Of a stretch of 64,000 nt of DNA, positions 52,863-64,000 are shown piece by piece. Source of the stretch: Synechococcus sp. UW69 (lineage in GTDB: Bacteria; Cyanobacteriota; Cyanobacteriia; PCC-6307; Cyanobiaceae); the NCBI RefSeq assembly GCF_900474185.1, contig NZ_UCNW01000008.1, positions 248,001-312,000 of the forward strand, in the 5' to 3' direction. The notes beneath the pieces were generated by a model. It made no database searches, was not told the origin of the DNA, and saw nothing but the letters and a program-made list of their open reading frames with translations. Within the stretch, counting starts at the first letter, position 1. Each line of letters begins with the position of its first letter. The translations under genes were made by a program, and so were the position numbers.

Positions 52863-53141
52863 ATGACGCTTCCCGACAACCCCCTGGGCCTAGAGAGTTT
52901 TGAGGAACTGGTCGACTGGACCGTCTCCTACCTCCACTTCAAACACGCACTTGAGGTCATTGCCTTCACCCCAGAGATCGCGACGGCCTACCTGAACAAC
53001 TTCAGCGACTTCAAAAGTCGCTACGCCACGGAGATGAAAAAGCAGGACATCCTGGAAGCCCGTCTTCCCAAGGAGATGCGAGAGACGATTGAGGCCGAAA
53101 ACGCTCACCGTGCATTGCTGAGGCAGCTCCTCAACGGTTGA
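52863..53141 (+). CDS. Hypothetical helical protein
   Basis: A 92-residue all-helical acidic protein (ELVDWTVSYLHFKHALEVIA, LEARLPKEMRETIEAENAHR). Probably soluble and cytosolic. Last of the four-gene petJ run; function unknown. Confidence 0.6.
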   Translation: MTLPDNPLGLESFEELVDWTVSYLHFKHALEVIAFTPEIATAYLNNFSDFKSRYATEMKKQDILEARLPKEMRETIEAENAHRALLRQLLNG

Positions 53142-53202
53142 TCAAGCATCAACTCAGCGCACGTCCTGACTCGCCAGATCAGACCCTGAATGAGACTGAA
53201 TC

Positions 53203-53412
53203 TCACGAAGCGGGATGGGCCTGTTTGGCAGCCTTCAGCACACCGAGGTAGAGGTCTTCGTCAATCTCGCGGATGTCGTACTCCGTCGGCTTCACCCCGT
53301 GATGGTGCTCATGGACGACCATCCAACAGCTGCGCTCCAACTCTCCGCCAGCTGTCGACGACAGCGCCAAACTCTTCTGGACGAGAGACTCCACCAGCTG
53401 TGGATCAGACAT
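53203..53412 (-). CDS. Hypothetical helical protein
   Basis: A 69-residue protein (MSDPQLVESLVQKSLALSST, then ERSCWMVVHEHHHGVKPTEY and YLGVLKAAKQAHPAS). The Trp/His-rich middle could bind a metal or cofactor. It is divergent from clpB, 144 nt away, and convergent with the 52863 gene. Confidence 0.6.
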   Translation of the reverse strand: MSDPQLVESLVQKSLALSSTAGGELERSCWMVVHEHHHGVKPTEYDIREIDEDLYLGVLKAAKQAHPAS

Positions 53413-53556
53413 CGGCCCTTCTCAGTTCGGCGAACTCTAAAAACCCATTCCGGTTTGCCGCCCCGTGGTGAGAGCACCCAACCGAATTCTTCGGTTTGCC
53501 CCCTCGGGCCTCGCATCAATCGCCATACGGTGAACGGAGTTTGAAGCGCATCAGAG

Positions 53557-56145
53557 ATGCAACCCACGGCGGAACAGTTCACTGAAAAAGCCTGGGCCGC
53601 CATCGTCGCCGCCCAGCAACTGGCGCAAACCAGCAAACATCAGCACCTTGAAACGGAGCATCTGCTGCTGGCTCTTCTGCAGCAGAACGGTCTGGCTGGC
53701 CGAATTCTGAGCAAAGCAGGTGTCGACGTCGCCAATTTCCAAGCGTCGGTCGAGACCCATCTCAAGCAGCAACCCAGCCTTGGATCTCCACCGGAATCAG
53801 TCTTTCTGGGACGTTCCCTGAACAGCTGCCTGGATCGAGCAGAAACAGCCCGTGATGGATTCAGCGACAGCTACATCGCTATCGAACATCTGTTGCTGGC
53901 CTTGGCAGACGATGAGCGCTGCGGAAGGCAACTGCTCAGCCAAGCGGGCGTTGATACCACCAAACTCAAAGAAGCCATTACTGCTGTGCGAGGCAACCAG
54001 ACGGTGACCGATCAGAACCCAGAGGGGACCTATGAATCCCTCGAAAAGTATGGGAGGGACCTGACGGCAGCTGCCCGTGACGGCAAGCTAGACCCGGTGA
54101 TCGGGCGGGACGAGGAGATCCGACGCACGATCCAGATCCTCAGCCGACGCACCAAGAACAACCCCGTGCTGATTGGCGAACCGGGGGTTGGCAAAACCGC
54201 AATTGTGGAGGGACTGGCACAGCGGATCGTCAACGGTGACGTACCGCAGGCCTTGCAGAATCGTCAGCTCATCGCCCTCGACATGGGGGCCCTGATCGCT
54301 GGAGCGAAATACCGAGGCGAGTTTGAGGAACGCCTCAAAGCTGTGCTCAAGGAGGTCACCTCCTCCGAAGGCCAGATCGTGCTGTTCATCGATGAAATCC
54401 ACACGGTGGTGGGCGCAGGAGCCACCGGTGGAGCCATGGACGCCAGCAACCTGCTCAAACCGATGCTGGCCCGGGGAGAACTCCGCTGCATCGGTGCCAC
54501 CACCCTTGATGAGCATCGACAGCACATCGAAAAGGACCCTGCCCTGGAGCGACGCTTCCAGCAAGTGTTGGTGGATCAACCCACGGTGGAAGACACGATT
54601 TCCATCCTGCGCGGTCTCAAAGAGCGCTATGAGGTGCACCACGGCGTCCGCATTGCCGACAGTGCCCTGGTGGCTGCTGCTGTCTTGAGCAGCCGCTACA
54701 TCGCTGACCGCTTTTTGCCCGACAAAGCGATCGATCTGGTGGATGAATCCGCCGCGCGCCTGAAGATGGAGATCACCTCCAAACCTGAGGAGATCGATGA
54801 AATCGATCGCAAGATCCTGCAGCTGGAGATGGAAAAGCTCTCCCTCGGCCGTGAATCCGACAGTGCCAGCCAGGAACGGCTGCAACGGATCGAACGGGAA
54901 CTGGCGGAACTGGGCGAACAGCAAAGTTCGCTGAATGCCCAGTGGCAGCAGGAGAAAGGCGCCATCGACGAGCTCTCTTCGCTTAAAGAAGAGATCGAAC
55001 GGGTGCAGCTGCAGGTGGAACAAGCCAAGCGCAGCTACGACCTCAACAAAGCGGCGGAACTGGAATACGGCACCCTGGCCTCGCTGCAGAAGCAGTTGCT
55101 CGAGCAGGAAGCCCAGATCGCCTCGGAGGAGCCTGGTGAGAAAGGCTTGCTGCGGGAGGAGGTGAGTGAAGACGACATTGCCGAGGTGATCGCCAAGTGG
55201 ACCGGGATCCCCGTGGCGCGGCTGGTGCAGAGCGAAATGGAGAAGCTGCTGCAGCTGGAGGATGACCTGCATCAGCGGGTGATCGGCCAGAACCAGGCCG
55301 TCACCGCGGTGGCGGATGCGATCCAACGATCCAGGGCAGGCCTGAGCGACCCGAACCGCCCCATCGCCAGCTTCCTCTTTCTCGGCCCCACCGGTGTTGG
55401 CAAGACCGAACTCTCCAAAGCACTCGCCAACCGGCTGTTCGACAGCGATGACGCGATGGTGCGCATCGACATGTCGGAGTACATGGAGAAGCACACCGTC
55501 AGTCGTTTGATCGGTGCTCCCCCAGGCTATGTGGGTTATGAAGCAGGGGGCCAGCTCACCGAAGCGGTGCGTCGTCGGCCCTACGCCGTGATCCTGTTCG
55601 ACGAGGTGGAGAAAGCCCACCCCGATGTCTTCAACGTGATGCTGCAAATCCTCGATGACGGCCGCGTCACCGATGGGCAAGGCCGCACCGTGGACTTCAC
55701 CAACACGGTGCTGATTCTCACCAGCAACATCGGCAGCCAATCGATCCTTGAGCTGGCCGCTGATCCCGAGCAGCATGAAGCGATGGAAGCCAGGGTGAAT
55801 GAAGCTCTCCGGGCCCATTTCCGGCCGGAATTTCTCAATCGTCTGGACGATCAGATCATCTTCCACAGCCTCAGGCGGGAGGAACTGCGCCAGATCGTCA
55901 CCCTCCAGGTGGAACGCCTACGCAAGCGGCTGGCTGACCGCAAGCTGGAGCTCAGCCTGAGTGAAGGGGCCGCCGACTGGCTCGCCAGTGCCGGATATGA
56001 CCCTGTCTACGGGGCACGACCGCTGAAACGGGCTGTTCAACGGGAACTTGAGACTCCCATAGCAAAAGCGATCTTGGCGGGGCGCTATCGCGAGGGAGAA
56101 GCCATCCATGTAGAGATGGAGTCAGAACAAATTCGCTTGCTTTGA
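53557..56145 (+). CDS. clpB: ClpB disaggregase
   Basis: An 862-residue Hsp100 chaperone that, with DnaK, extracts proteins from aggregates after heat or light stress. It has the N-terminal Clp_N domain (residues 1-150), NBD1 with Walker A GEPGVGKT near residue 208, the coiled-coil M domain (about 410-530) and NBD2 with GPTGVGKTE near residue 609, arginine fingers and the C-terminal D2-small domain ([20 protein letters not shown]). Length is normal. The 5' region contains an AACCGAA-TTC-TTCGGTT inverted repeat but no CIRCE element. Downstream is an AT-rich island. Confidence 0.98.
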
Positions 56146-56174
56146 CAAAAGAAGCTAACGGTGTCTTTTAGGGC

Positions 56175-56537
56175 TTATTTACGGCTGGGCTTACCGTTAT
56201 GTATGACCGTTTCACCTTCTGTTGAAGTGACGCGCACGGTTCCCCCGCTCATTTGGACACCTGTGTAAAAACCGTTGATTTTTTCTACGGAGCGTCCTGG
56301 AACACCAGGTTGTACGGGATCCCCGATCATCAGTTCCCCGCGAACATGATTGAGATGGTCGAAGTTCTGCGTGAAGGAAAAGGCAAATCCCTCAGGACAG
56401 ATGTTGAAACGGTTGTGTCCTAATGGATCGCTCGGCATGCAGCCTGCAATAGCGTGTGGAGCATCGACAGCAGCTCCACAAACCATAAGAGCTCCCGACG
56501 TGAGTGTGATGGCTGCAGTCTTCAGGTAATGGTTCAT
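56175..56537 (-). CDS. Exported small protein of the 56-60 kb island
   Basis: A 120-residue protein with a signal peptide (LKTAAITLTSGALMVCGAAV...AIA) and two cysteines (AGCMPSD and NICPEGF) near the mature N-terminus, then beta-like GELMIGDPVQPGVPGRSVEK and GGTVRVTSTEGETVIHNG. It overlaps the upstream gene by one base (TGATG), so it is the last gene of a minus-strand run. No family. It lies 30 nt from the clpB stop. Confidence 0.65.
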   Translation of the reverse strand: MNHYLKTAAITLTSGALMVCGAAVDAPHAIAGCMPSDPLGHNRFNICPEGFAFSFTQNFDHLNHVRGELMIGDPVQPGVPGRSVEKINGFYTGVQMSGGTVRVTSTEGETVIHNGKPSRK

Positions 56538-57040
56538 CAGAAAGCATCCTTGAAGTCTTTGGGCTGCTCCACGCCAAATGTTGAGTTATTCAAGCCTGGC
56601 TGGAAGACATTGGGTGCATTGTTCTGCAGTTCTAGCACTGTTGACTGATCAGCTGCATCGGGTGTGCTTGTTGACTCAGGCTGAGGAGTCGATTGGGGTA
56701 TACCTAGGTTGTTGGAATCTATTTTTTCATCAGCGGCGTTGTTGCTTAGAGATTGGCAGCTCAAGGAAATCTGATTAACAATGCCAGTGTTTTGAAGAGC
56801 CAAGCATTCATAATTTTCTGTTTTTTCTTCACTCTCTGGAATGCTTTGGCATTCAACGATGGGCCATGACGTAATTAAACAGCCGAGTTTTTGATCTTCC
56901 CCACTTCCTGCCTTCCAGCAGGCTCCTGTCGCATCATGGTTGCCAATGCAGTAAACCGTCTGCGTAGGATTGGCAGATGCTTCAGAGAAGCTGACAGCTG
57001 GGTTGAACAGCAGAAAAATAAGGAAACAAAGACCTCGCAC
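56537..57040 (-). CDS. Exported Asn/Ser-rich protein
   Basis: A 167-residue protein from a GTG start with a signal peptide (RGLCFLIFLLFNPAVSFSEA). The mature protein has six cysteines (YCIGNH, ACWKAG, GCLITS, ECQS, ECLALQ, SCQSL), probably three disulfides, then a low-complexity Ser/Thr/Pro/Asn linker and an ending NNSTFGVEQPKDFKDAF. It reads like a secreted or surface protein. It lies in an AT-rich stretch unlike clpB or hisIE. Unknown function. Confidence 0.6.
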   Translation of the reverse strand: MRGLCFLIFLLFNPAVSFSEASANPTQTVYCIGNHDATGACWKAGSGEDQKLGCLITSWPIVECQSIPESEEKTENYECLALQNTGIVNQISLSCQSLSNNAADEKIDSNNLGIPQSTPQPESTSTPDAADQSTVLELQNNAPNVFQPGLNNSTFGVEQPKDFKDAF

Positions 57041-57082
57041 CGTTAAGTTGTAATGTTTGATCTGGATTGATCTTGACGTGGA

Positions 57083-57748
57083 TTAGTCGGTTGACAAGCG
57101 TGGAGTCTTGGCAATTCCGGCAGGTTTCGAATTGGTCGTTGACTTAGGGGAAGTTTTTCCATGAGCGTAGAGGGACCGCACCATGCCATTTTTTGTGATC
57201 ATGGGCTCACCCTCTTCTATAACGCATTTTTTGAGGGCGGGGAATTTGACGGGGTCAACAACGATTCCGTCTTTTGCCAATGAGACACACGTCTTGATCA
57301 GAGAAAGTTGTGTTGATATCACCCGATCTTTTGCTATTTGACGCGCCATCGTTTTGCAATCTTCGATTGCGCTGGAGCCAAAGGGAATGGTCATTCCTAC
57401 GGTTCCGTTAAACGATTTATTTCGGGATCCGTTGAAAGTGAACTCGTCAAAATTATCAGTATTTACTTTTCCCGCATTAGTGAGCATATAGAGCGATGGC
57501 GTTCTGCAAATAATTCCAGGCCCATAGCCAAAATCATTGTTAAACGCTGTGTTGGTTTGGTAGTTAATATTGGTTCCCCCCGTGGTGACTGAGGAGGCTG
57601 CGGGGGCTGCTGTGTTGCTTACGGTTGTATTGTTATTGGTCGCTTCTGCGTTGGCATGCTGGTTAAAAGCGCACAAAAAATTAATCGCAATCAACAATAA
57701 GGCGTGCAAAGTGAAGATATGGTTTCGCCTGTGAAGCTTGTAAGACAC
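57083..57748 (-). CDS. Exported Asn/Thr-rich protein
   Basis: A 221-residue protein from a GTG start. The signal peptide (FTLHALLLIAINFLCAFNQH...ANA) is followed by a Thr/Asn/Ala-rich stretch (TNNNTTVSNTAAPAASSVTT), then INYQTNTAFNNDFGYGPGII and a domain with four cysteines (ICRTPS, EDCKTM, KTCVSL, KKCVIE). It is followed after 42 nt by the 56537 gene. The 240 nt upstream (57749-57989) is AT-rich and holds no gene I can support. Confidence 0.6.
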   Translation of the reverse strand: MSYKLHRRNHIFTLHALLLIAINFLCAFNQHANAEATNNNTTVSNTAAPAASSVTTGGTNINYQTNTAFNNDFGYGPGIICRTPSLYMLTNAGKVNTDNFDEFTFNGSRNKSFNGTVGMTIPFGSSAIEDCKTMARQIAKDRVISTQLSLIKTCVSLAKDGIVVDPVKFPALKKCVIEEGEPMITKNGMVRSLYAHGKTSPKSTTNSKPAGIAKTPRLSTD

Positions 57749-57989
57749 TGCACAATTGTATTTCCTGTGATTTTATGGCAGTGCTGACGTCCTTGCAACC
57801 AATTCCGCTTTGTGCTCATCTCGAGTGTTTCGGCGGTTATGAATGCAGTCGTCTTGTTAAATGGTAATAACTGATACAAAAATCTAATTGCGTATTGTTC
57901 TTGTTGGCTCTTGCGATTTATTCCCTTCTTGTAGGGCTTTTGGCTTTATTTTTGCAGTGCCGAGCTGATTTTATTATTATTTATTTGGC

Positions 57990-58490
57990 TTAGAAGTTTT
58001 GGCTGAAGCTGCTTGTGAAGGCGCTTTGTTGTTGTTGGACTTTAATATTCAGTTCGTGAACCGCCATCGATGAGGCTGTGCCCTTGATGGGTTTTGAAGG
58101 GTCAGGATTCTCTATGGATTCCATCTCGGATGTGAATTTTGTGCCAGGTCCAAAAAGAAAAACATTCCTCGATTGAATCCCGTTGATGCTCATATTCCCT
58201 CCCCCTGGAGTCACGGTGAAGTTTGCGTTCGCATTGCCTTTGCTGTCTCCAAAAGCGTCGTCAATATAGCTGCCGGGTAGCAGATTCACTGTTGCACTGT
58301 TCTTTGTGCGTACGTTGCTGTTGGTGTCAATTGAATTCCGTACACCAAACGAATTTGTAATTGAAATTTGAAAATCTCTTGCGGAGCTTCCAGAGATTCT
58401 ATTCATTTGTTGGGCGGATGTCCTGGCGCTAAAAAAGAGCCCAAAAATCGAGACCAATATTATTAATAAATTGTATTTAGTTCGGGACAT
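57990..58490 (-). CDS. Exported island protein with C-terminal FSQNF tail, copy A
   Basis: A 166-residue protein with a signal peptide (YNLLIILVSIFGLFFSARTS-AQQ). The body has SITNSFGVRNSIDTNSNVRT and KNSATVNLLPGSYIDDAFGD, and ends SAFTSSFSQNF. Body and tail align with the next gene (58506), so the two are diverged tandem paralogues. The terminal Phe and preceding aromatic spacing recall outer-membrane sorting signals, but there is no barrel. 15 nt from the 58506 gene. Confidence 0.65.
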   Translation of the reverse strand: MSRTKYNLLIILVSIFGLFFSARTSAQQMNRISGSSARDFQISITNSFGVRNSIDTNSNVRTKNSATVNLLPGSYIDDAFGDSKGNANANFTVTPGGGNMSINGIQSRNVFLFGPGTKFTSEMESIENPDPSKPIKGTASSMAVHELNIKVQQQQSAFTSSFSQNF

Positions 58491-58505
58491 ACTGAGTATC
58501 CCGCT

Positions 58506-59162
58506 TTAGAAATTCTGAGAGAATGCGCTACTGAAAGATGTGTTCGAAATATCAACATTGATGTTGCTGTTCACATTGGCTGCAGCAGATGCGTTGGACA
58601 CGTTGGTGGCTGCATCGCTGGCGTCGCCTGAGTTGGTTAGCGATGTGTTGAAGGACGTTACAGCAGGGTCAAGGGTCATGTCGAATGCTGACGACATACC
58701 AGTCAGGCTTGTGCTGCCCTCAGCAAACTGAGCTTCGTCGACGGAATCGACATTTCCTGTCGTCCCTCCCGCACTGTTGAAGTTGGTGGTGCCGCCGCCC
58801 ACGGTGCGAACGTTCTTGATGTCAGCCGCAATCGAAGGTACGCCCCCCTCTTCAGCTGATGCGCCCAGAACCGTGGAGATTTTGCCTTCAAGTGGCTTTA
58901 AGGAAGCTTTGCTTTCAATAACCGTTCCCGACATGCCGCTCATGCTGGATGTCACGCCAAATGCGTTGCTCGTTCCAACCGAAAGGGTTGCTCTGGAGCC
59001 GTTGGACACATTGATGGTGACCGATTGGCCGGGCCCCGCTAGCTGCTCTGGTGGAAGATCTGGTGCTGTTTGGGCTTGCGAAGTAGGCGCAAAAGCCAAG
59101 CTTGCTGCAGCAATTGCAGTAGCAATAGATAAGCGCTGAAAATCAACCAATGGGATTTCCAC
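58506..59162 (-). CDS. Exported island protein with C-terminal FSQNF tail, copy B
   Basis: A 218-residue protein, GTG start, with a signal peptide (LSIATAIAAASLAFAPTSQA). The mature part is rich in Ser, Thr, Ala and Asn with a predicted beta-repeat feel: SVTINVSNGSRATLSVGTSN, GVTSSMSGMSGTVIESKASL. It ends SFSSAFSQNF, nearly the same as copy A. The region [SV]GTNxxFxVxSS and a later AxL segment are also found in the 59672 protein. Divergent from that gene across a repeated intergenic region. Function unknown. Confidence 0.65.
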   Translation of the reverse strand: MEIPLVDFQRLSIATAIAAASLAFAPTSQAQTAPDLPPEQLAGPGQSVTINVSNGSRATLSVGTSNAFGVTSSMSGMSGTVIESKASLKPLEGKISTVLGASAEEGGVPSIAADIKNVRTVGGGTTNFNSAGGTTGNVDSVDEAQFAEGSTSLTGMSSAFDMTLDPAVTSFNTSLTNSGDASDAATNVSNASAAANVNSNINVDISNTSFSSAFSQNF

Positions 59163-59258
59163 TTGGCTAGCCCTTAGACCTACGACTCAATCGTATACAC
59201 ACACTGAGCAAAAATCCGTTGTGTATTTGGCCTTAATCAGGCCTTCGATCAATATTTT

Positions 59259-59595
59259 GTATCAGAAAGAACTTAATTGGCAATTTGGTATTCAATCGAA
59301 CAATGGCAACATTGCGGATCTTGCATATTCATAAAATTTTTTGTAGCAAAATGGACATTTTTCGACGATTCAGTACCAAAACGAGCATGCGATTAACGCA
59401 TATTCCAAGTATTCGACAGACTTTCCGTATCACGAGGAACTTAATTGGCAATTTAGTATCCAAATGAACACTAAGACTATGCGCATCACGCATGTTAAAA
59501 ATTGTCTTGTAGCGGAAATAACATGTTCCGAAATTTTGGTAGCGCAATGAACATGCAAATCACGCATATTCCAAAATTAGGTATACCTGCGCTCT
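59259..59595. repeat. Duplicated 168-bp intergenic unit with four ATGCG-N5-CGCAT-type palindromes
   Basis: Two diverged copies (59259-59426 and 59427-about 59595) share a perfect 18-mer GAACTTAATTGGCAATTT at 59269 and 59437 (168 bp apart) and aligned flanks. Each copy carries two 15-bp hyphenated palindromes: 59312 (TTGCG-N5-TGCAT), 59387 (ATGCG-N5-CGCAT), 59479 (ATGCG-N5-CGCAT) and 59553 (ATGCA-N5-CGCAT). The 508-nt gap between the divergent exported-protein genes (59162 and 59672) is otherwise free of genes. Repeated operator sites or an abandoned mobile repeat are both possible. Confidence 0.8.
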
Positions 59596-59671
59596 TTTAA
59601 TCGGCAAGCCAGGTCTAATGTGAATGTGTTGGCGTATATGCGCTAGCACACTCTCAATTGGTTGCAACCCC

Positions 59672-60694
59672 ATGAGAAGACCACTTCTATTGGCTGCAGC
59701 GCTTTCCAGCGCAGTGGCCGTCGCCCTCGGCAGCAGCCCTGCCAAAGCCGACATGTTCAACATCAATGCTGCCGCTCCTGGCACGCTGACCTTCAGTGGC
59801 AGCGGCACCGCTCAGTTCAACAACTCGCTGGGCACCAACAACAGCTTCCAGGTGGGCTCCGCCACAAGCCTTGGCGTCAACGCTTCCACCTCATCGACTC
59901 CTGAATATGCAGTGACGTCGACAGCGACTTTGAATCTGGACACCACGTCCAACATGTCGCAGACCATCGGCACCTCCGGCGCTGGGCAATCGAAAACAGC
60001 CACCAGCACCCGTGCGCATGATGTGTCACGGAGCGCGATGAGCAGCCGCGGCTGGGAAAGCGAGTGGGAGTACGGTCGCGAGTACGAGAATCGTGCTGGT
60101 CAAACCACCACGTATGACTCCCAAGCTTCATACGAAGCCGCTTACAACTCTGAGTACAACGCCGAATACCAAAACGCATACTCTCAGGTCAAGTCCACCG
60201 AGTCGAGCTCGACATCGGATGGAACCATCAGTGGCGCTTTCAAAACGGTTGAGTACAGCCGATCCAACGCCTCAGGGGCAGCTGCAGACTGGGAAGCAAG
60301 TGCATCAGCTAGCGCCGAAGCAAAATACGGCAATAGCTATGACAGCTCGAGCGGCAATTATTCGTTCGCATCCGAAGCTGACTGGCAAGCCGCATACGAC
60401 GCCGAGTACAACTCCGCTTACTCCCGCGCATCTGCGGGGGCCAGCAAGTACTCCAATAGCAACGTGACGGTGAATGGCATCGGTTCAGATGCCGACATCG
60501 TCGCTGCTAGCGGTTCGACCTTCACCACAGATATTGGTGCAGGTAGTGGTACCGCTTCTGGCTCGACATCCACTGCACAGGGTTCAGCTGGAGCCAGCTT
60601 GAGCACAGTGTCTTTGGCCAACCAGTCGCAGTCCCAGACGGCATCAGCCTTCATTCAGTCGTTCGGTGGAACAACCACAGCTCCGGCTCAATAA
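59672..60694 (+). CDS. Exported Tyr/Ser-rich repeat protein
   Basis: A 340-residue protein with a signal peptide (RRPLLLAAALSSAVAVALGS...AKA) and a body made of Ser/Thr/Ala with regularly spaced Tyr. Two segments have period-4 Tyr: SYEAAYNSEYNAEYQNAYSQ and DWQAAYDAEYNSAYSRA. An N-terminal segment (LGTNNSFQVGSATSLGVNAS) matches the exported paralogues across the intergenic region, and near the end QTASAFIQSFGG resembles their SSAFSQNF tail. No cysteine. It may be a fibre or surface-layer-like protein; that is inference. A strong terminator follows. Confidence 0.7.
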   Translation: MRRPLLLAAALSSAVAVALGSSPAKADMFNINAAAPGTLTFSGSGTAQFNNSLGTNNSFQVGSATSLGVNASTSSTPEYAVTSTATLNLDTTSNMSQTIGTSGAGQSKTATSTRAHDVSRSAMSSRGWESEWEYGREYENRAGQTTTYDSQASYEAAYNSEYNAEYQNAYSQVKSTESSSTSDGTISGAFKTVEYSRSNASGAAADWEASASASAEAKYGNSYDSSSGNYSFASEADWQAAYDAEYNSAYSRASAGASKYSNSNVTVNGIGSDADIVAASGSTFTTDIGAGSGTASGSTSTAQGSAGASLSTVSLANQSQSQTASAFIQSFGGTTTAPAQ

Positions 60695-60716
60695 GGTCTT
60701 ACGCTTAATTCAACCC

Positions 60717-60746
60717 AAGCCCTCCCTCGCGAGAGGGCTTTTTTTT
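60717..60746 (+). terminator. Terminator of the Tyr-rich repeat gene
   Basis: AAGCCCTC-CCTCGC(GA)-GAGGGCTT hairpin followed by eight T counting the end of the stem, 22 nt after the stop of the 59672 gene. Confidence 0.85.
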
Positions 60747-60810
60747 GCTCAAAAACTTCAGATAATTGGGTCTATCATCTAGAGGCAAAGAATTTCATGC
60801 AGCAGCCAAC

Positions 60811-61464
60811 TCAAGATTTACATTGAGCCGCGAACCATTGCCCTGGTCCCTCCTGCCCTAGGGCACTCGCAATTTTCCAATCGGCGCAAGCACCCTTTAA
60901 GTCACCAGTCATTTCCCGTGTGATCCCTCGATTTCGATAAGCATCTGCCAAGCGGGGATCCAAGCGAATGGCTTGGCTGAAATCACTGATGGCAGCTTGA
61001 TTCTGCTGCAAAGCGCCACGGGTGACACCACGATTGGAGTAGGCCTTGGCATAGCCAGGGTCAATAGCGATAGCTCGATCAAGATCATTCAACGCCTCTT
61101 GAAATTGACCCATCCGGCCTTTCACCAGAGCCATCGCTGCAAAAGCTTTTGCATGCTTTGGATTCAAGTTAATGGCCTTCTGAAAATGCTGAATAGATTG
61201 CTGGTTCTGCTTGAACATTGATGCGATGCGGCCCTGATAATAATGATAACTGGGATCTCTTTTGTCCTTGAAATTGCGCATTAAGGACGCCGCTTTTTGG
61301 GTCTGCCCGAGATCAAGATAAAGATCAACTTTTGAATATTTGCCGTTAACACTTGGAGAGGCGTTGGCCAAATGAGCTTCGACTAAGAAACAAAAAAGAA
61401 TTAAAGATAGTCTTTTTTTAAATTTGAATTTCACTACCTTCTTGGCAAACGAGGCGACGGTCAT
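60811..61464 (-). CDS. Exported TPR-repeat protein
   Basis: A 217-residue protein with a signal peptide (FKKRLSLILFCFLVEAHLANA) and about four TPR units: SYHYYQGRIASMFKQNQQSI, AKAFAAMALVKGRMGQFQEA, AKAYSNRGVTRGALQQNQAA and ADAYRNRGITREMTGDLKGA. TPRs are protein-binding scaffolds; a final C-x-x near FAAQCKS could form a disulfide or be lipid-free. The ATG at 61464 is preferred over the TTG at 61488. It borders the exported-protein island and could assist it, but this is only positional. Confidence 0.8.
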   Translation of the reverse strand: MTVASFAKKVVKFKFKKRLSLILFCFLVEAHLANASPSVNGKYSKVDLYLDLGQTQKAASLMRNFKDKRDPSYHYYQGRIASMFKQNQQSIQHFQKAINLNPKHAKAFAAMALVKGRMGQFQEALNDLDRAIAIDPGYAKAYSNRGVTRGALQQNQAAISDFSQAIRLDPRLADAYRNRGITREMTGDLKGACADWKIASALGQEGPGQWFAAQCKS

Positions 61465-61565
61465 TGTTCGACTCAGTGTTTGCTGCAAAAGCTTTGTGAG
61501 TAATTTTACTAACAGGATGGGAAATTGCTAGCCATCCAGCGAGCTCGCAACAGAAGCCCCCACCG

Positions 61566-62060
61566 CTAAGGCATGAACCAAGGAGGCGTTGATTGGTAAA
61601 CAGCCGCATTGTTGCTGTTCTCCCGCGCCTCCACGCCATAGCAACAGGTGCGGCCACTGTCCCGCTCCTGCAGCAGCTCGTTGGCCCAGGTCCAGATCAA
61701 AGCCGCCGTTGCCTCCATGCCCACGTTCTCCATCACGCGGAGATCAATGGCCTGGAGGTCGTGCAGCCGCTGCCATTCCGCCAGCAGGGGATCGTCTGCA
61801 TTCACCAGAAAAGTGTGGTCGAACTGCTGCCGCAAGCGTTGTTCGAAGGGGCGCAGGCTGGAGAAATCAACAACAAACCCGCAGGCATCCAGCTCCGTTG
61901 CGGCGAACCAGAGGTTGAAACTGCGGCTGTACCCATGCACGAAGCGGCAATGGCCCTGGTGGCGCCACTGCCGGTGACAGCAGGGATAGCCGCTGAAGGC
62001 TTTGCTGCAGCTGTAGGGGGTCGGAGAAACGAGCAAGGGGTGAAACGCGGAATGGAGCAC
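61566..62060 (-). CDS. 6-pyruvoyltetrahydropterin/QueD-like synthase
   Basis: A protein of about 164 residues from a GTG start at 62060. Zinc ligands appear as HRQWRHQGHC and VHGYSRSF; SKAFSGYPCCHRQ has the catalytic Cys region and FDHTFLVNADDPLLAEW follows. The Glu of VGMEATAALIWTWANELL is the family's substrate-binding Glu. QueD makes 6-carboxytetrahydropterin for queuosine; PTPS makes pyruvoyltetrahydropterin. Which reaction applies is unclear because spacing differs from classical QueD. The longer frame to 62261 runs antisense inside hisIE and is rejected. Confidence 0.75.
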   Translation of the reverse strand: MLHSAFHPLLVSPTPYSCSKAFSGYPCCHRQWRHQGHCRFVHGYSRSFNLWFAATELDACGFVVDFSSLRPFEQRLRQQFDHTFLVNADDPLLAEWQRLHDLQAIDLRVMENVGMEATAALIWTWANELLQERDSGRTCCYGVEARENSNNAAVYQSTPPWFMP

Positions 62061-62102
62061 GCTGCGGGAAGATTCAGGCGTTGCCCGAATGTCCGAGGCC
62101 TG

Positions 62103-62771
62103 ATGCAGCCCCTCAGCCCCGCCTTCATTGACCAACTCCGTTTTAACGAAGCGGGGCTGATTCCAGCTGTGGCCCAGGACTGGCTGGATGGGGCCGTGCT
62201 GATGGTGGCCTGGATGAACCGGGACGCGATTGAAGCCACCCTGCGCAGCGGTGAGGTGCATTACTGGAGCCGCTCACGCCAGGAGCTCTGGCACAAAGGG
62301 GCCACAAGCGGTCACATCCAGACGATGCGGGAGATCCGCTACGACTGTGATGCCGACGTGCTGCTGGTGACCGTGGAACAGTCTGGAGATGTGGCCTGCC
62401 ACACCGGCTCCCGAAGCTGTTTCTACGAAAACAGCGATGCCCGAACGGCCGGTGGAGCCGAGGCTCTAGCGCCGCCAACGGATGCCTGCACCGAACTGTT
62501 CCGAGTGATCGAGGGGAGACGAAAGCAGCCGGAGGAAGGCAGCTACACCAACAAGCTGCTGGCGGGTGGAGACAACAGCATCCTCAAAAAAATCGGTGAG
62601 GAGAGTGCTGAATTCGTGATGGCCTGCAAAGACGACAACGCCGCCGAAATCGCTGGCGAGGCTGCGGACATCGTCTTCCACATGCAAGTGGCCCTGGCCC
62701 ATCACGGCGTGAGCTGGCGGCAGGTGCAGGAAGTGCTGGCAGCGCGCCGCGGCGCCCCGCGCCGCCACTAA
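62103..62771 (+). CDS. hisI: Bifunctional phosphoribosyl-AMP cyclohydrolase/phosphoribosyl-ATP pyrophosphatase
   Basis: A 222-residue fusion (HisIE) catalysing steps 2 and 3 of histidine synthesis. The HisI half has VLMVAWMNRDAIEATLRSGE, HYWSRSRQELWHKGATSGH and the zinc region RYDCDAD...VACHTGSRSCFY. The HisE half has LFRVIEGRRKQPEEGSYTNK, LKKIGEESAEFVMACKDDN and GEAADIVFHMQVAL, with the acidic metal-binding residues intact. The ATG at 62103 begins the HisI domain directly. It ends with a 4-nt overlap with the convergent transpeptidase gene. Confidence 0.96.
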   Translation: MQPLSPAFIDQLRFNEAGLIPAVAQDWLDGAVLMVAWMNRDAIEATLRSGEVHYWSRSRQELWHKGATSGHIQTMREIRYDCDADVLLVTVEQSGDVACHTGSRSCFYENSDARTAGGAEALAPPTDACTELFRVIEGRRKQPEEGSYTNKLLAGGDNSILKKIGEESAEFVMACKDDNAAEIAGEAADIVFHMQVALAHHGVSWRQVQEVLAARRGAPRRH

Positions 62772-63424
62772 GGCAGACAGGGGCTGTCGCTGCTGATCAC
62801 CACGTCATCGCCGAGCTTCACGGTGTCCAACAACACCCCCATGGTGAGCTGTCCGGCATTGATGCACCCTCCCGTCACCGCCTTACCGATCCGGGTCTCG
62901 TCGTTGGTGCCGTGAATGGCGAAGCTGTACCAGCGGAAGACGCCGTCGTAGGTGTTGAAACGAAAGGGCTGCTCGGTTGCCGGCACCGGAGCCAGGCTGA
63001 TGTAGCCGATGCCGTACTCACCGGTTTCCCCATCGCCTTTGAAGTCGATGGAGTTCATGTTGCTGAAGAGGGTTTCGCGCAGCTCCTCCTCCGTTTTTCC
63101 GGATTGCTCCACCAGTGAGGGGTCCATCTCGAAGCGGTCGTTGCTGAGGATGGCGTTGACCTGAAACGTTCCGAGCGGTGTGACGCCCTCTTCAAAGGTG
63201 GTGCCTTCACAACCGATGCCATGGCGACCATGGCCAACGGTGAAGCGCAAGGGTCCCTCAGCACGATCCAAAACACCTTCACTGGCTGCTGGATTGCTGC
63301 CGTTCAGCTGGATCCGAATCGGTTCCCGAACCTGAGGGTCCTGCAAGGAGGTGCCGGTGTCAGAGCGGCACCCCACGAGGCTCGCCATCAAGCCTGCCAT
63401 CACGAAAGAACGGAGCAGGTCCAC
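62768..63424 (-). CDS. L,D-transpeptidase (YkuD) lipoprotein
   Basis: A 218-residue protein from a GTG start. The lipobox LVGC (VMAGLMASLVGCRS) points to a lipid-anchored periplasmic enzyme. The YkuD motif is present as FAIHGTNDETRIGKAVTGGC, with the catalytic Cys in TGGCINAGQLTMG and the His in AIHGT. Such enzymes make 3-3 cross-links in peptidoglycan or attach proteins. An upstream extension (YNVxxFxEGVTPLGTFQVNA-like) forms the start of the domain. Convergent with hisIE. Confidence 0.85.
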   Translation of the reverse strand: MDLLRSFVMAGLMASLVGCRSDTGTSLQDPQVREPIRIQLNGSNPAASEGVLDRAEGPLRFTVGHGRHGIGCEGTTFEEGVTPLGTFQVNAILSNDRFEMDPSLVEQSGKTEEELRETLFSNMNSIDFKGDGETGEYGIGYISLAPVPATEQPFRFNTYDGVFRWYSFAIHGTNDETRIGKAVTGGCINAGQLTMGVLLDTVKLGDDVVISSDSPCLP

Positions 63425-63470
63425 ACATCGATCACGACTGAAGGCAGCATGCCGCGCCCGGATGGCGACG

Positions 63471-64000
63471 TCACTCCAGTGATTCAGATTCGGCCGGTTG
63501 GATGGACTGTCGAATCGTCGAACCGAATCGGGAGGGCTGCTGCATCACCCAGTCCAGCGTGAGGCGATCACGCTCCGATGGCACCAACACTGGACGTTCG
63601 CCTTGGCTGATCGCCAGGACATCGGTGGGCACCGAACTGTGGCCCCAGAGCCCGAAGGCATGGCCAAGTTCGTGCAAGGCCGTGGCCTGCAGTGCTTCAG
63701 CCCGCAAGCCGGGGGAAACCATCACCTTCACTTGAGGTTCAAGCCTTCGGCGGCCACTGCGCTGAGCATCCACAACCTGAAGTTGTGTGCGTCCGTTGCT
63801 GGCCCGCCACACCCCTGCCACCTGGCGACGGGCCGGACGCTGCCGATGAATCAGCACATTGGCCTTTTTCGGACTGTCCACCAGCGTGAGTGGAACCAAT
63901 GCACCCCAGGTGGTCAGCGCCGAGGACACCCCATCCAGCCAGCGTTGATCCCAACGGTTGGCCGGTGTGGCAGCTGCGGGCTGAACCCATATGCACCAGT
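63471..64000 (-). CDS. Partial metzincin-like zinc protease, 5' part outside window
   Basis: The minus-strand frame is open from the right edge to 63471; the 5' end is missing. The zinc motif ATALHELGHAFGLWGHS has the HExxHxxGxxH layout of metzincins (M10/matrixin-like), and QVKVMVSPGLRAEALQ is the preceding helix. Secreted or periplasmic location is likely for this family but the signal peptide would be outside the window. The partner L,D-transpeptidase gene follows 46 nt downstream on the same strand. Confidence 0.75.
   Translation of the reverse strand, partial: WCIWVQPAAATPANRWDQRWLDGVSSALTTWGALVPLTLVDSPKKANVLIHRQRPARRQVAGVWRASNGRTQLQVVDAQRSGRRRLEPQVKVMVSPGLRAEALQATALHELGHAFGLWGHSSVPTDVLAISQGERPVLVPSERDRLTLDWVMQQPSRFGSTIRQSIQPAESESLE

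Follow-up and report, generated by a model that had tools for sequence, protein, structure and literature searches.

A strain-specific seven-gene insert in Synechococcus sp. UW69 encodes homologous exported proteins that may form a surface structure

The window analyzed here is a stretch of 64,000 nucleotides from Synechococcus sp. UW69, in which the region between clpB and hisIE was originally predicted to be an AT-rich island; indeed, its GC content is 0.482 over positions 56175-61488 versus 0.587 in the remainder of the window. The clpB–hisIE gap measures 5,933 bp here versus 508-515 bp in eight genomes of near relatives. In DNA comparisons, the homology to five genomes of the same genus ends at 56120-56129 and restarts at 61603, and in three further genomes, whose gap contains an additional ORF, it ends at 56084-56086 and restarts at 61576-61617. 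These homology breaks, together with the gap size, delimit a strain-specific insert (56130..61602, no strand) of approximately 5.47 kb and seven genes: five minus-strand ORFs and one plus-strand ORF, as predicted, and an adjoining gene encoding an exported TPR protein (60811..61488, minus strand), assigned by Pfam TPR families and with homologues at other loci. The original prediction recognized the six ORFs but ended the island at 60746, although the homology to the empty sites restarts only at 61603. It did not extend to the seventh gene or recognize the insertion, nor did it note the C-terminal motif and the wider class of p3/p2 loci described below.

The six ORFs (p1 to p6) each start with a Sec-like signal peptide with an AxA-type site, as judged by inspection. 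On the minus strand, p1 (56175..56537) encodes 120 aa, p2 (56537..57040) encodes 167 aa with six cysteines and the C-terminus DFKDAF, p3 (57083..57748) encodes 221 aa with four conserved cysteines and a CRTP motif, p4 (57990..58490) encodes 166 aa ending in SFSQNF, and p5 (58506..59162) encodes 218 aa ending in AFSQNF. On the plus strand, p6 (59672..60694) is better started at the ATG at 59672 than at 59624, giving 340 aa with a clean signal peptide, and its C-terminus consists of FIQSF followed by a nine-residue tail. The Ser/Thr/Asn/Ala fraction past residue 25 is 0.23 in p1, 0.34 in p2, 0.39 in p3, 0.40 in p4, 0.49 in p5 and 0.54 in p6, so that the predicted richness in these residues fits p3 to p6. 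Multiple cysteines, announced for two proteins, are present in three (two in p1, six in p2 and four in p3 past residue 30, none in p4 to p6). A prophage origin of the island was considered and rejected, since a search of the phage collection with p6 returned nothing, ARAGORN returned zero tRNA on 53000-64000 and no integrase was seen among the ORFs. Rfam retrieved nothing at gathering score over the same interval.

In agreement with the predicted lack of known families, p1 to p6 matched none at cut-off in Pfam and NCBIfam and nothing in PADLOC at E 0.1. Across Pfam, NCBIfam, PHROGs, PADLOC and PDB-sequence searches, the only usable matches were those of p3 to phrog_1755 and of the seventh gene to TPR; the repeat region of the latter matched SspC (7.8e-4), PrimPol (9.1e-4) and TPR (0.024) in PADLOC. 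FlxA, OMP_b-brl (E 0.035) and NABP were under cut-off and were dropped as names. Structure prediction, proposed as a check of the original prediction, brought no fold match: the p3 model was poor (pLDDT 52.6) and unfit for fold searches, and the p4 model, of moderate quality (pLDDT 72.9, pTM 0.45), gave a best Foldseek E of 1.8e-3 at TM 0.14, Z ≤2.7 in VIA-align and nothing at E 0.001 in the viral library. Phage tail proteins and pore-toxin hairpins such as lysenin were rejected as the p4 fold, their scores being at noise level.

Profile comparison relates three of the proteins to each other. The hhalign E-values are 4.6e-11 for p4-p5, 2e-5 for p4-p6 and 1.6e-5 for p5-p6, with scores of 74.2, 42.3 and 44.0 versus maxima of 21.2, 16.6 and 17.4 in 60 shuffles each, and p5 against p3 gave nothing. 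By these profiles, p4, p5 and p6 are paralogues, presumably exported subunits. They share an aromatic C-terminal peptide, in its full form FxxxFxQx[FY], in which the F residues stand four positions apart (−1, −5 and −9), usually with Q at −3. The strict motif is found in 2/63 ORFs of the window and in 15 of the 145 ORFs of ten loci, always in p4, p5 or p6 and nowhere else among the ORFs checked.

This peptide could suggest an outer-membrane beta-barrel or export pore built as an oligomer, in which p4, p5 and p6 would each contribute a long amphipathic hairpin to a shared barrel, the C-terminal peptide would be a BAM-type signal and p3, p2 and p1 would be periplasmic partners or cargo. Most p4/p5 and several p6 end in F or Y, and the p4 model is predicted to contain two 27-residue strands with a weak resemblance to pore hairpins, e.g., lysenin. 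However, the beta-signal of outer-membrane proteins combines a terminal aromatic with alternating hydrophobic residues, in contrast to the four-residue spacing observed here; the motif is followed by a tail in several p6 and in two p4, and every fold score was at noise level. We regard a beta-barrel or pore as the less likely alternative.

The likely major subunit is p6, read as such because it has conserved stretches near both ends, a variable middle, where aromatic residues are often four apart, and five copies in one relative (G026). Flagellin- and pilin-type major subunits also have conserved end regions, a variable middle and multiple copies; this is an analogy only; p6 has no family match, and no pilus or flagellar gene was seen in the cassette. 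The C-ending codon use of p6 is the highest of its cluster in all eight clusters computed, with a margin of only 0.01 in L051 and L054. Its codon bias (0.73) is unexceptional among the window ORFs (mean 0.63, sd 0.13, maximum 0.88), and that of the L049 p6 (0.38) lies under the mean of the other ORFs (0.53). A functional amyloid or matrix acting like curli, with Ser/Asn/Thr/Tyr-rich proteins polymerizing extracellularly for aggregation or biofilm, would agree with the S+T+N+A+G+Q fractions past residue 25 (0.62 in p5 and 0.68 in p6) and with the tyrosine ladder of p6. Nevertheless, this ladder, mostly of four-residue spacing within Ala-containing sequence, looks by eye helical rather than cross-beta, and no curli or Fap family was retrieved at cut-off in Pfam or NCBIfam, making an amyloid quite improbable.

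The original prediction would have been contradicted by scattered orthologues without co-occurrence; instead, strong p3 and strong p4 matches were found in the identical nine of 300 family genomes. Eight of these nine also have p6 by search, and the ninth by BLAST in L053. The nine loci of the strict peptide-pattern scan are a lower bound, given the strictness of the patterns. In all 11 loci read, a p4-like gene immediately precedes p3 and p6 is also in the locus (L040–L045, being the same places as L051, L052, L050, L057, L055 and L049, were counted once, and the p3-like ORF of L046 was excluded from the cluster counts). The comparison of the locus across genomes, likewise proposed as a check, gives a gap of approximately 0.5 kb in the eight near relatives and, among picocyanobacteria of both marine and fresh waters, a sporadically recurring cassette core with conserved gene order. 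Most of the cassette is present in Synechococcus sp. 8F6 and in Cyanobium usitatum Tous. Homologues of p1 follow p2 or p3 in seven of the ten other loci (L019, L049, L050, L051, L053, L054 and L056), and the TPR homologue sits between p6 and p5 in L049, L053, L054 and L056. No TPR gene was found beside the cluster in 4/11 loci (L050, L051, L055 and L019, where the TPR query was not run and only a TPR-GT gene was seen). TPR-GT9 glycosyltransferase genes are nearby in G026, L050 and L057, inspection by eye showed long or giant surface-type ORFs close to the cluster in G026, L051 and L052, and an extra exported protein of L052 (= L041) contains LysM domains. The identical p3/p4 genome sets, the conserved core and the p4/p5/p6 homology make it well supported that the seven genes form one shared system, as had been suggested for the six.

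The repeated intergenic region between p5 and p6, noted in the original prediction, is real: on one strand of the divergent, putatively regulatory region (59255..59575, plus strand), eight 15-bp boxes resembling GTAnCnnAAnnRACA are spaced by 29-30 and 53-55 bp, with a period of ~84 bp, and shuffling the region 200 times never produced eight copies, the consensus having been derived from the region in which it was counted. Single boxes are not enriched window-wide (34 found versus 30.7 expected), and the array signal is the clustering of boxes. Tandem Repeats Finder did not detect the window's array, and no copy below E 0.8 was found elsewhere in the genome. Four palindromes resembling ATGC-N7-GCAT lie in the same region, a weak enrichment (2.18 expected; 17/100 shuffles reach four), and they fit a T-N11-A box. 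As candidate regulators, LysR-like genes adjoin p6 in L049 and L053, where the Pfam matches stay under cut-off; in this genome, the sole match is located elsewhere and has an internal stop. Promoter-like sites (9 versus 6.1 in shuffles, sd 2.2) are not clearly in excess, and the hairpin resembling an intrinsic terminator 3′ of p6 (60717..60740, plus strand) is one of seven such sites in the region versus 6.8 expected from shuffles. The idea of a divergent regulated unit is supported here by the array, but the divergent layout is peculiar to this genome, p6 being co-stranded with p5 to p1 in nine of the ten other loci and convergent in the tenth (L050).

The most conserved cassette member, p3, matches over residues 44-175 the PHROGs profile phrog_1755 (E 6e-7), a family of phage proteins of unknown function, with four cysteines aligned by eye in one alignment; its orthologue in G026 matches at E 1.3e-8 and its homologue in cyanophage S-CAM7 at E 3.4e-32. 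Homologues occur in 31 phage records, four of Synechococcus (best E 6e-15) and 27 of Vibrio, the latter weak (6e-4 or weaker), and in an apparent prophage of G013 (E 8e-4). Plasmids gave no match to p3, and strict peptide patterns confirmed no relative in viral_contigs, though phage records hold one. In contrast to p3, p6 has no relative in the phage collection, which was searched with p3 and p6. A surface shield or receptor mask against phages or grazers, blunted or mimicked by the p3-like phage proteins, would fit these homologues and the sporadic occurrence and variable genomic site of the cassette, but p6 is unmatched in the phage collection, and p1 to p6 match no known anti-phage defence family in PADLOC. 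We regard such a shield as improbable.

Together with a p2-like partner, p3 is also present in L066, L109, L111 and L112, three of which adjoin different small exported proteins. A C-terminal pattern (SVF/LSAF-like) marks 20/33 ORFs listed under loose filters in this second subtype, a count without background control for a pattern picked after the sequences were seen. Four small groups from this subtype, compared by hhalign, show no homology to p4–p6 (probability ≤3%). We raise as a tentative idea, about which we are rather doubtful, that the cassette represents a single subtype within a widespread and so far undescribed class of extracellular assembly systems of cyanobacteria, with a core of a four-cysteine p3 and a six-to-eight-cysteine p2, whose substrates would be cassette-specific, small, cysteine-poor exported subunits with a C-terminal aromatic peptide; a phage-captured p3 would perhaps interfere with or mimic it, and the picocyanobacterial products may include spinae-like appendages.

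For the cassette itself, we lean slightly towards a horizontally acquired seven-gene set making an exported, self-assembling surface fibre or coat; the earlier suggestion of a secreted or surface structure is strengthened, although it is still an inference. In favour of this reading stand the shared genome sets, the p4/p5/p6 paralogy with its C-terminal motif, the end conservation, copy number and within-cluster codon use of p6, and the LysM protein, surface-type ORFs and glycosyltransferase genes near some of the clusters. After acquisition by transfer, p1 to p6 would leave the cytoplasm via Sec; p6 would be the major subunit, and its paralogues p5 and p4 minor ones serving as initiator, connector or tip, the common aromatic peptide acting as a strand that joins subunits or is recognized at the outer membrane. 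Being prone to form disulphides, p3, p2 and p1 may anchor the polymer or take part in its assembly, and the TPR protein may be a periplasmic or outer-membrane assembly factor. Both p6 and a p5–p1 operon would be co-controlled from the divergent region through a helically phased operator array. Counting against a surface structure, no outer-membrane channel was seen in the cassette, and therefore the exit of the subunits from the cell is unexplained. The lack of a fold match, the ordinary codon bias of p6, the promoter-like sites not clearly above shuffles, the clusters where no TPR neighbour was found and the non-conserved divergent layout also speak against this explanation.

Curli and chaperone-usher fibres consist of Sec-exported subunits with accessory proteins, as would the cassette product. 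Nevertheless, CsgA/B repeats and Csg accessory families are absent at cut-off from p1 to p6 (Pfam, NCBIfam), and PapD, usher and SCPU families from all seven proteins. Likewise, p1 to p6 do not match the pilin family (N-terminal methylation) of type IV pili, having the Sec-like AxA-type signal instead. Chains of the jelly-roll Ena spore-appendage fibres appeared in the Foldseek search of the p4 model, at noise level (E 0.9 and worse, TM ~0.12). Spinae are described in passages of one source as rigid tubes able to induce microcolonies in Cyanobium (PMC8955281), and cyanobacterial appendages including spinae, in parts of another, as largely genetically uncharacterized (PMC4390875). Such tubes, which occur on picocyanobacteria and other bacteria, would suit a surface appendage of several subunits with a patchy distribution among marine and freshwater picocyanobacteria; this link is pure conjecture.

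Exported proteins are portrayed, in sections of a further source, as a highly lineage-specific and largely uncharacterized part of picocyanobacterial genomes (PMC4949707). Here, orphan ORFs become a delimited, apparently movable system of seven genes, whose homologous subunits can be recognized by a diagnostic motif at the C-terminus and which has relatives in a wider family. If a surface structure is indeed made, the cassette would supply the genes of appendages not yet described in these abundant phototrophs, and the carriage of p3 by phages would have a reason.

The six exported ORFs, the AT-rich composition and the intergenic repeats of the original prediction were all borne out in the window sequence, and none of the six proteins could be assigned to a known family at the cut-off in Pfam or NCBIfam, as had also been claimed. 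Five ORFs lie on the minus strand, p1 (56175-56537), p2 (56537-57040), p3 (57083-57748), p4 (57990-58490) and p5 (58506-59162), and p6 (59672-60694) on the plus strand; judged by eye, all six apparently start with a Sec signal peptide. The adjoining gene for an exported TPR protein (60811-61488) belongs to the same set. No literature on these genes was found in the open-licence papers searched, an absence that is weak evidence.

A ClpB-type match was retrieved in 32 of the 34 genomes of the genus and hisIE in 29, and the clpB orthologue and hisIE share a single contig in 27. From distances derived from the search rows, the gap between them measures 508-2,655 bp in 26 of these 27 genomes, compared with 5,933 bp in the window; in eight near relatives (G001, G008, G009, G019, G021, G028, G031 and G033) it is 508-515 bp, about 0.5 kb in place of the window's gap (56146-61602) with its seven-gene cassette. 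DNA homology ends at 56120-56129 and restarts at 61603 in alignments to G009, G021, G008, G031 and G001, and ends at 56084-56086 and restarts at 61576-61617 in those to G003, G029 and G026. Because homology breaks off and restarts at these points, the insert is about 5.47 kb long and contains exactly these seven genes. The extra ORFs held in the gap by G003, G029 and G026 show that it is a variable genomic site. Named by eye only, these ORFs are aquaporin-like in G003 and G029 and HupE/UreJ-like in G026; the gap in relatives was read, reversed, at L082 (506-1186), L084 (514-1158) and L087 (559-1185). No word of at least nine bases was found in common between 56081-56200 and 61541-61660, and no tRNA lies near the insert.

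The GC content of the cluster is below that of its flanks in eight of the 11 cassette loci compared (the flank in L050 being merely 1,627 bases) and not in G026 or either Prochlorococcus locus, so low GC alone is no proof of transfer. The empty site and the patchy distribution are better evidence for it. The alternative would be loss of the cassette from all other members of the genus; p4, p5 and p6 were each found in two of its 34 genomes, the window genome and G026.

Of the 300 family genomes searched, 19 have a p3 match, strong in nine (E no higher than 1.7e-84) and weak in ten (E 2e-16 to 4e-4); p4 has matches in precisely the nine strong genomes and in no weak one. A search found p6 in eight of the nine, and in the ninth (G117, which is L053 by coordinates) it is present by BLAST. 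In the class, p3 matches seven of 291 genomes, five of them weakly. A p3-pattern scan of 84,980 species genomes yielded nine confirmed loci (Synechococcus lacustris, Synechococcus 8F6, HJ21-Hayes, TMED19, three Cyanobium and two Prochlorococcus), which with the window and G026 make up the 11 compared. A p4-like gene immediately precedes p3 in all 11, each with p6 in the locus; the least certain p4 is that of L052, where the E-value against the p4 profile is, by coordinates, 2.7e-4 for the p3-adjacent gene and 1e-10 for the preceding ORF. A recognisable p5 lies ahead of p4 in eight loci, six with the full run p5-p4-p3-p2-p1 (window, L019 of G026, L049, L051, L053 and L056) and two, L050 and L054, retaining p5-p4-p3-p1. 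Different exported proteins stand upstream in L052, L055 and L057, one of those in L052 carrying LysM domains. On these comparative grounds, the co-occurrence of p3 and p4 and the kept gene order point to one system.

The positions of p6 and the TPR gene differ among loci. The order p6-TPR-p5-p4-p3-p2-p1 occupies one strand in L049, L053 and L056, and L054 is alike without p2; in the window the order is TPR-p6-p5-p4-p3-p2-p1, p6 being inverted; in L052 and L057, p6 adjoins a long TPR protein; and G026 shows p5-p4-p3-p2-p1-p6-p6, with three more p6 copies elsewhere. Directly after these two adjacent G026 copies comes a giant surface ORF, cadherin-like by eye, of at least 2,481 aa (L019 11557-18999, open). 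Genes joining TPR and glycosyltransferase family 9 lie near the cassette in three genomes (L019 3597-5384; L042, the same place as L050, 2208-4007; L043, the same place as L057, 12179-14050), GT9 having been tested in two and the third assigned by likeness; these enzymes might glycosylate Ser/Thr-rich subunits.

Profile comparisons show p4, p5 and p6 to be homologous to one another, with hhalign E-values of 4.6e-11 (p4-p5), 2e-5 (p4-p6) and 1.6e-5 (p5-p6) and scores far exceeding 60 column-shuffled controls per pair; p5 and p3 gave no match by hhalign. The p4 profile also retrieves p6 within the window genome (E 3e-4). The three share a C-terminal peptide whose strict form, with aromatics at -1, -5 and -9, occurs in two of 63 non-overlapping window ORFs of at least 100 aa, namely p4 and p5; across ten loci, 15 of 145 ORFs carry it, every one p4, p5 or p6. 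The strict form is not universal: p6 of the window, G026, L050, L051, L052 and L057 has FxQxF-like residues only, with a tail after them; p4 also ends in a tail in G026 and L050, and in L049, L054, L055 and L056 it fits only a looser form, which a few p2 and the LysM protein fit as well. The p6 protein has conserved stretches towards both ends, where the majority fraction is 0.55-0.72 at residues 41-100, 0.59 at 261-280 and 0.66 at 301-320, with lower values at 281-300 (0.42) and in the final 20 residues (0.46). Its middle is variable (0.30-0.49 at 101-260), and the most frequent spacing between its aromatics is four. In all eight clusters computed, of the 11, C-ending codons make up a larger fraction in p6 than in any other gene of the cluster (by a margin of only 0.01 in L051 and L054), which may reflect high expression; against other ORFs of the same locus, the p6 fraction is unexceptional in the window and low in L049. 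For p4, an AlphaFold model (pLDDT 72.9, pTM 0.45) has strands at 30-56 and 135-161, and structure searches with it gave no credible fold match.

Between p5 and p6, eight 15-bp boxes (GTAnCnnAAnnRACA-like) lie on one strand at 59259-59553, a number reached in none of 200 shuffles, alongside four imperfect ATGC-GCAT palindromes. Their spacings of 29, 55, 30, 54, 29, 53 and 30 bp give about 84 bp per pair, close to whole helical turns, and autocorrelation of the region peaks at 168, 166, 250 and 83-84 bp. The genome has no second copy of the array; in G026 the box, searched for with one motif expression, is absent ahead of p5 and of all five p6 copies, and L053 has an unlike, palindromic array (34 bp x 3.9) ahead of p6. 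A LysR-like relative of the regulator adjoining p6 in L049 and L053 is present in the window genome, with one internal TGA (G000:C8:505392-505862).

What the cassette makes is best read, with moderate confidence, as a putative exported, self-assembling fibre or coat on the cell surface. The rival readings are a pore complex in the outer membrane, a functional amyloid and a shield against phages or grazers.

The reach of p3 is wider than the cassette. It has homologues in 31 phage records (cyanophage S-CAM7 at E 6e-15; Vibrio phages weakly, at 6e-4 or worse) and matches phrog_1755, a phage family without assigned function. The p3-like proteins of S-CAM7 (L047 4989-5360) and Vibrio phage D274 (L048 4893-5402) have four cysteines that align with those of p3, and a further p3-like protein lies in a probable prophage of G013 (L046 8453-9133). 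Conserved cysteines number four in p3 and six in p2. Elsewhere, weakly matching relatives of p3 have surroundings that differ from the cassette. Of the 15 such loci read (L065-L069 and L106-L115), four have a p2-like gene (L066, L109, L111 and L112; E-values of 5e-9 to 2e-13 when the ORFs of a single locus were searched at a time) and seven have exported cysteine-poor neighbours (L066, L068, L069, L111, L112, L114 and L115), many with SVF, LSAF or a like peptide at the C-terminus; the small proteins of this kind that were compared showed no homology to p4-p6. Other exported proteins adjoin p3 in L065 and L067, and no run of small exported cysteine-poor proteins was seen in L106-L110 or L113. 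Runs with SVF/LSAF-like ends form a second type of p3 cluster at L066 (4275-8926), L069 (1997-5025), L112 (5573-9870) and L115 (1208-5429), with a p2-like partner in L066 and L112. Since p3, accompanied by p2 in four loci, recurs beside differing small exported proteins, the comparison suggests that p3 and p2 are general assembly or anchoring parts and the small proteins the subunits specific to each system.
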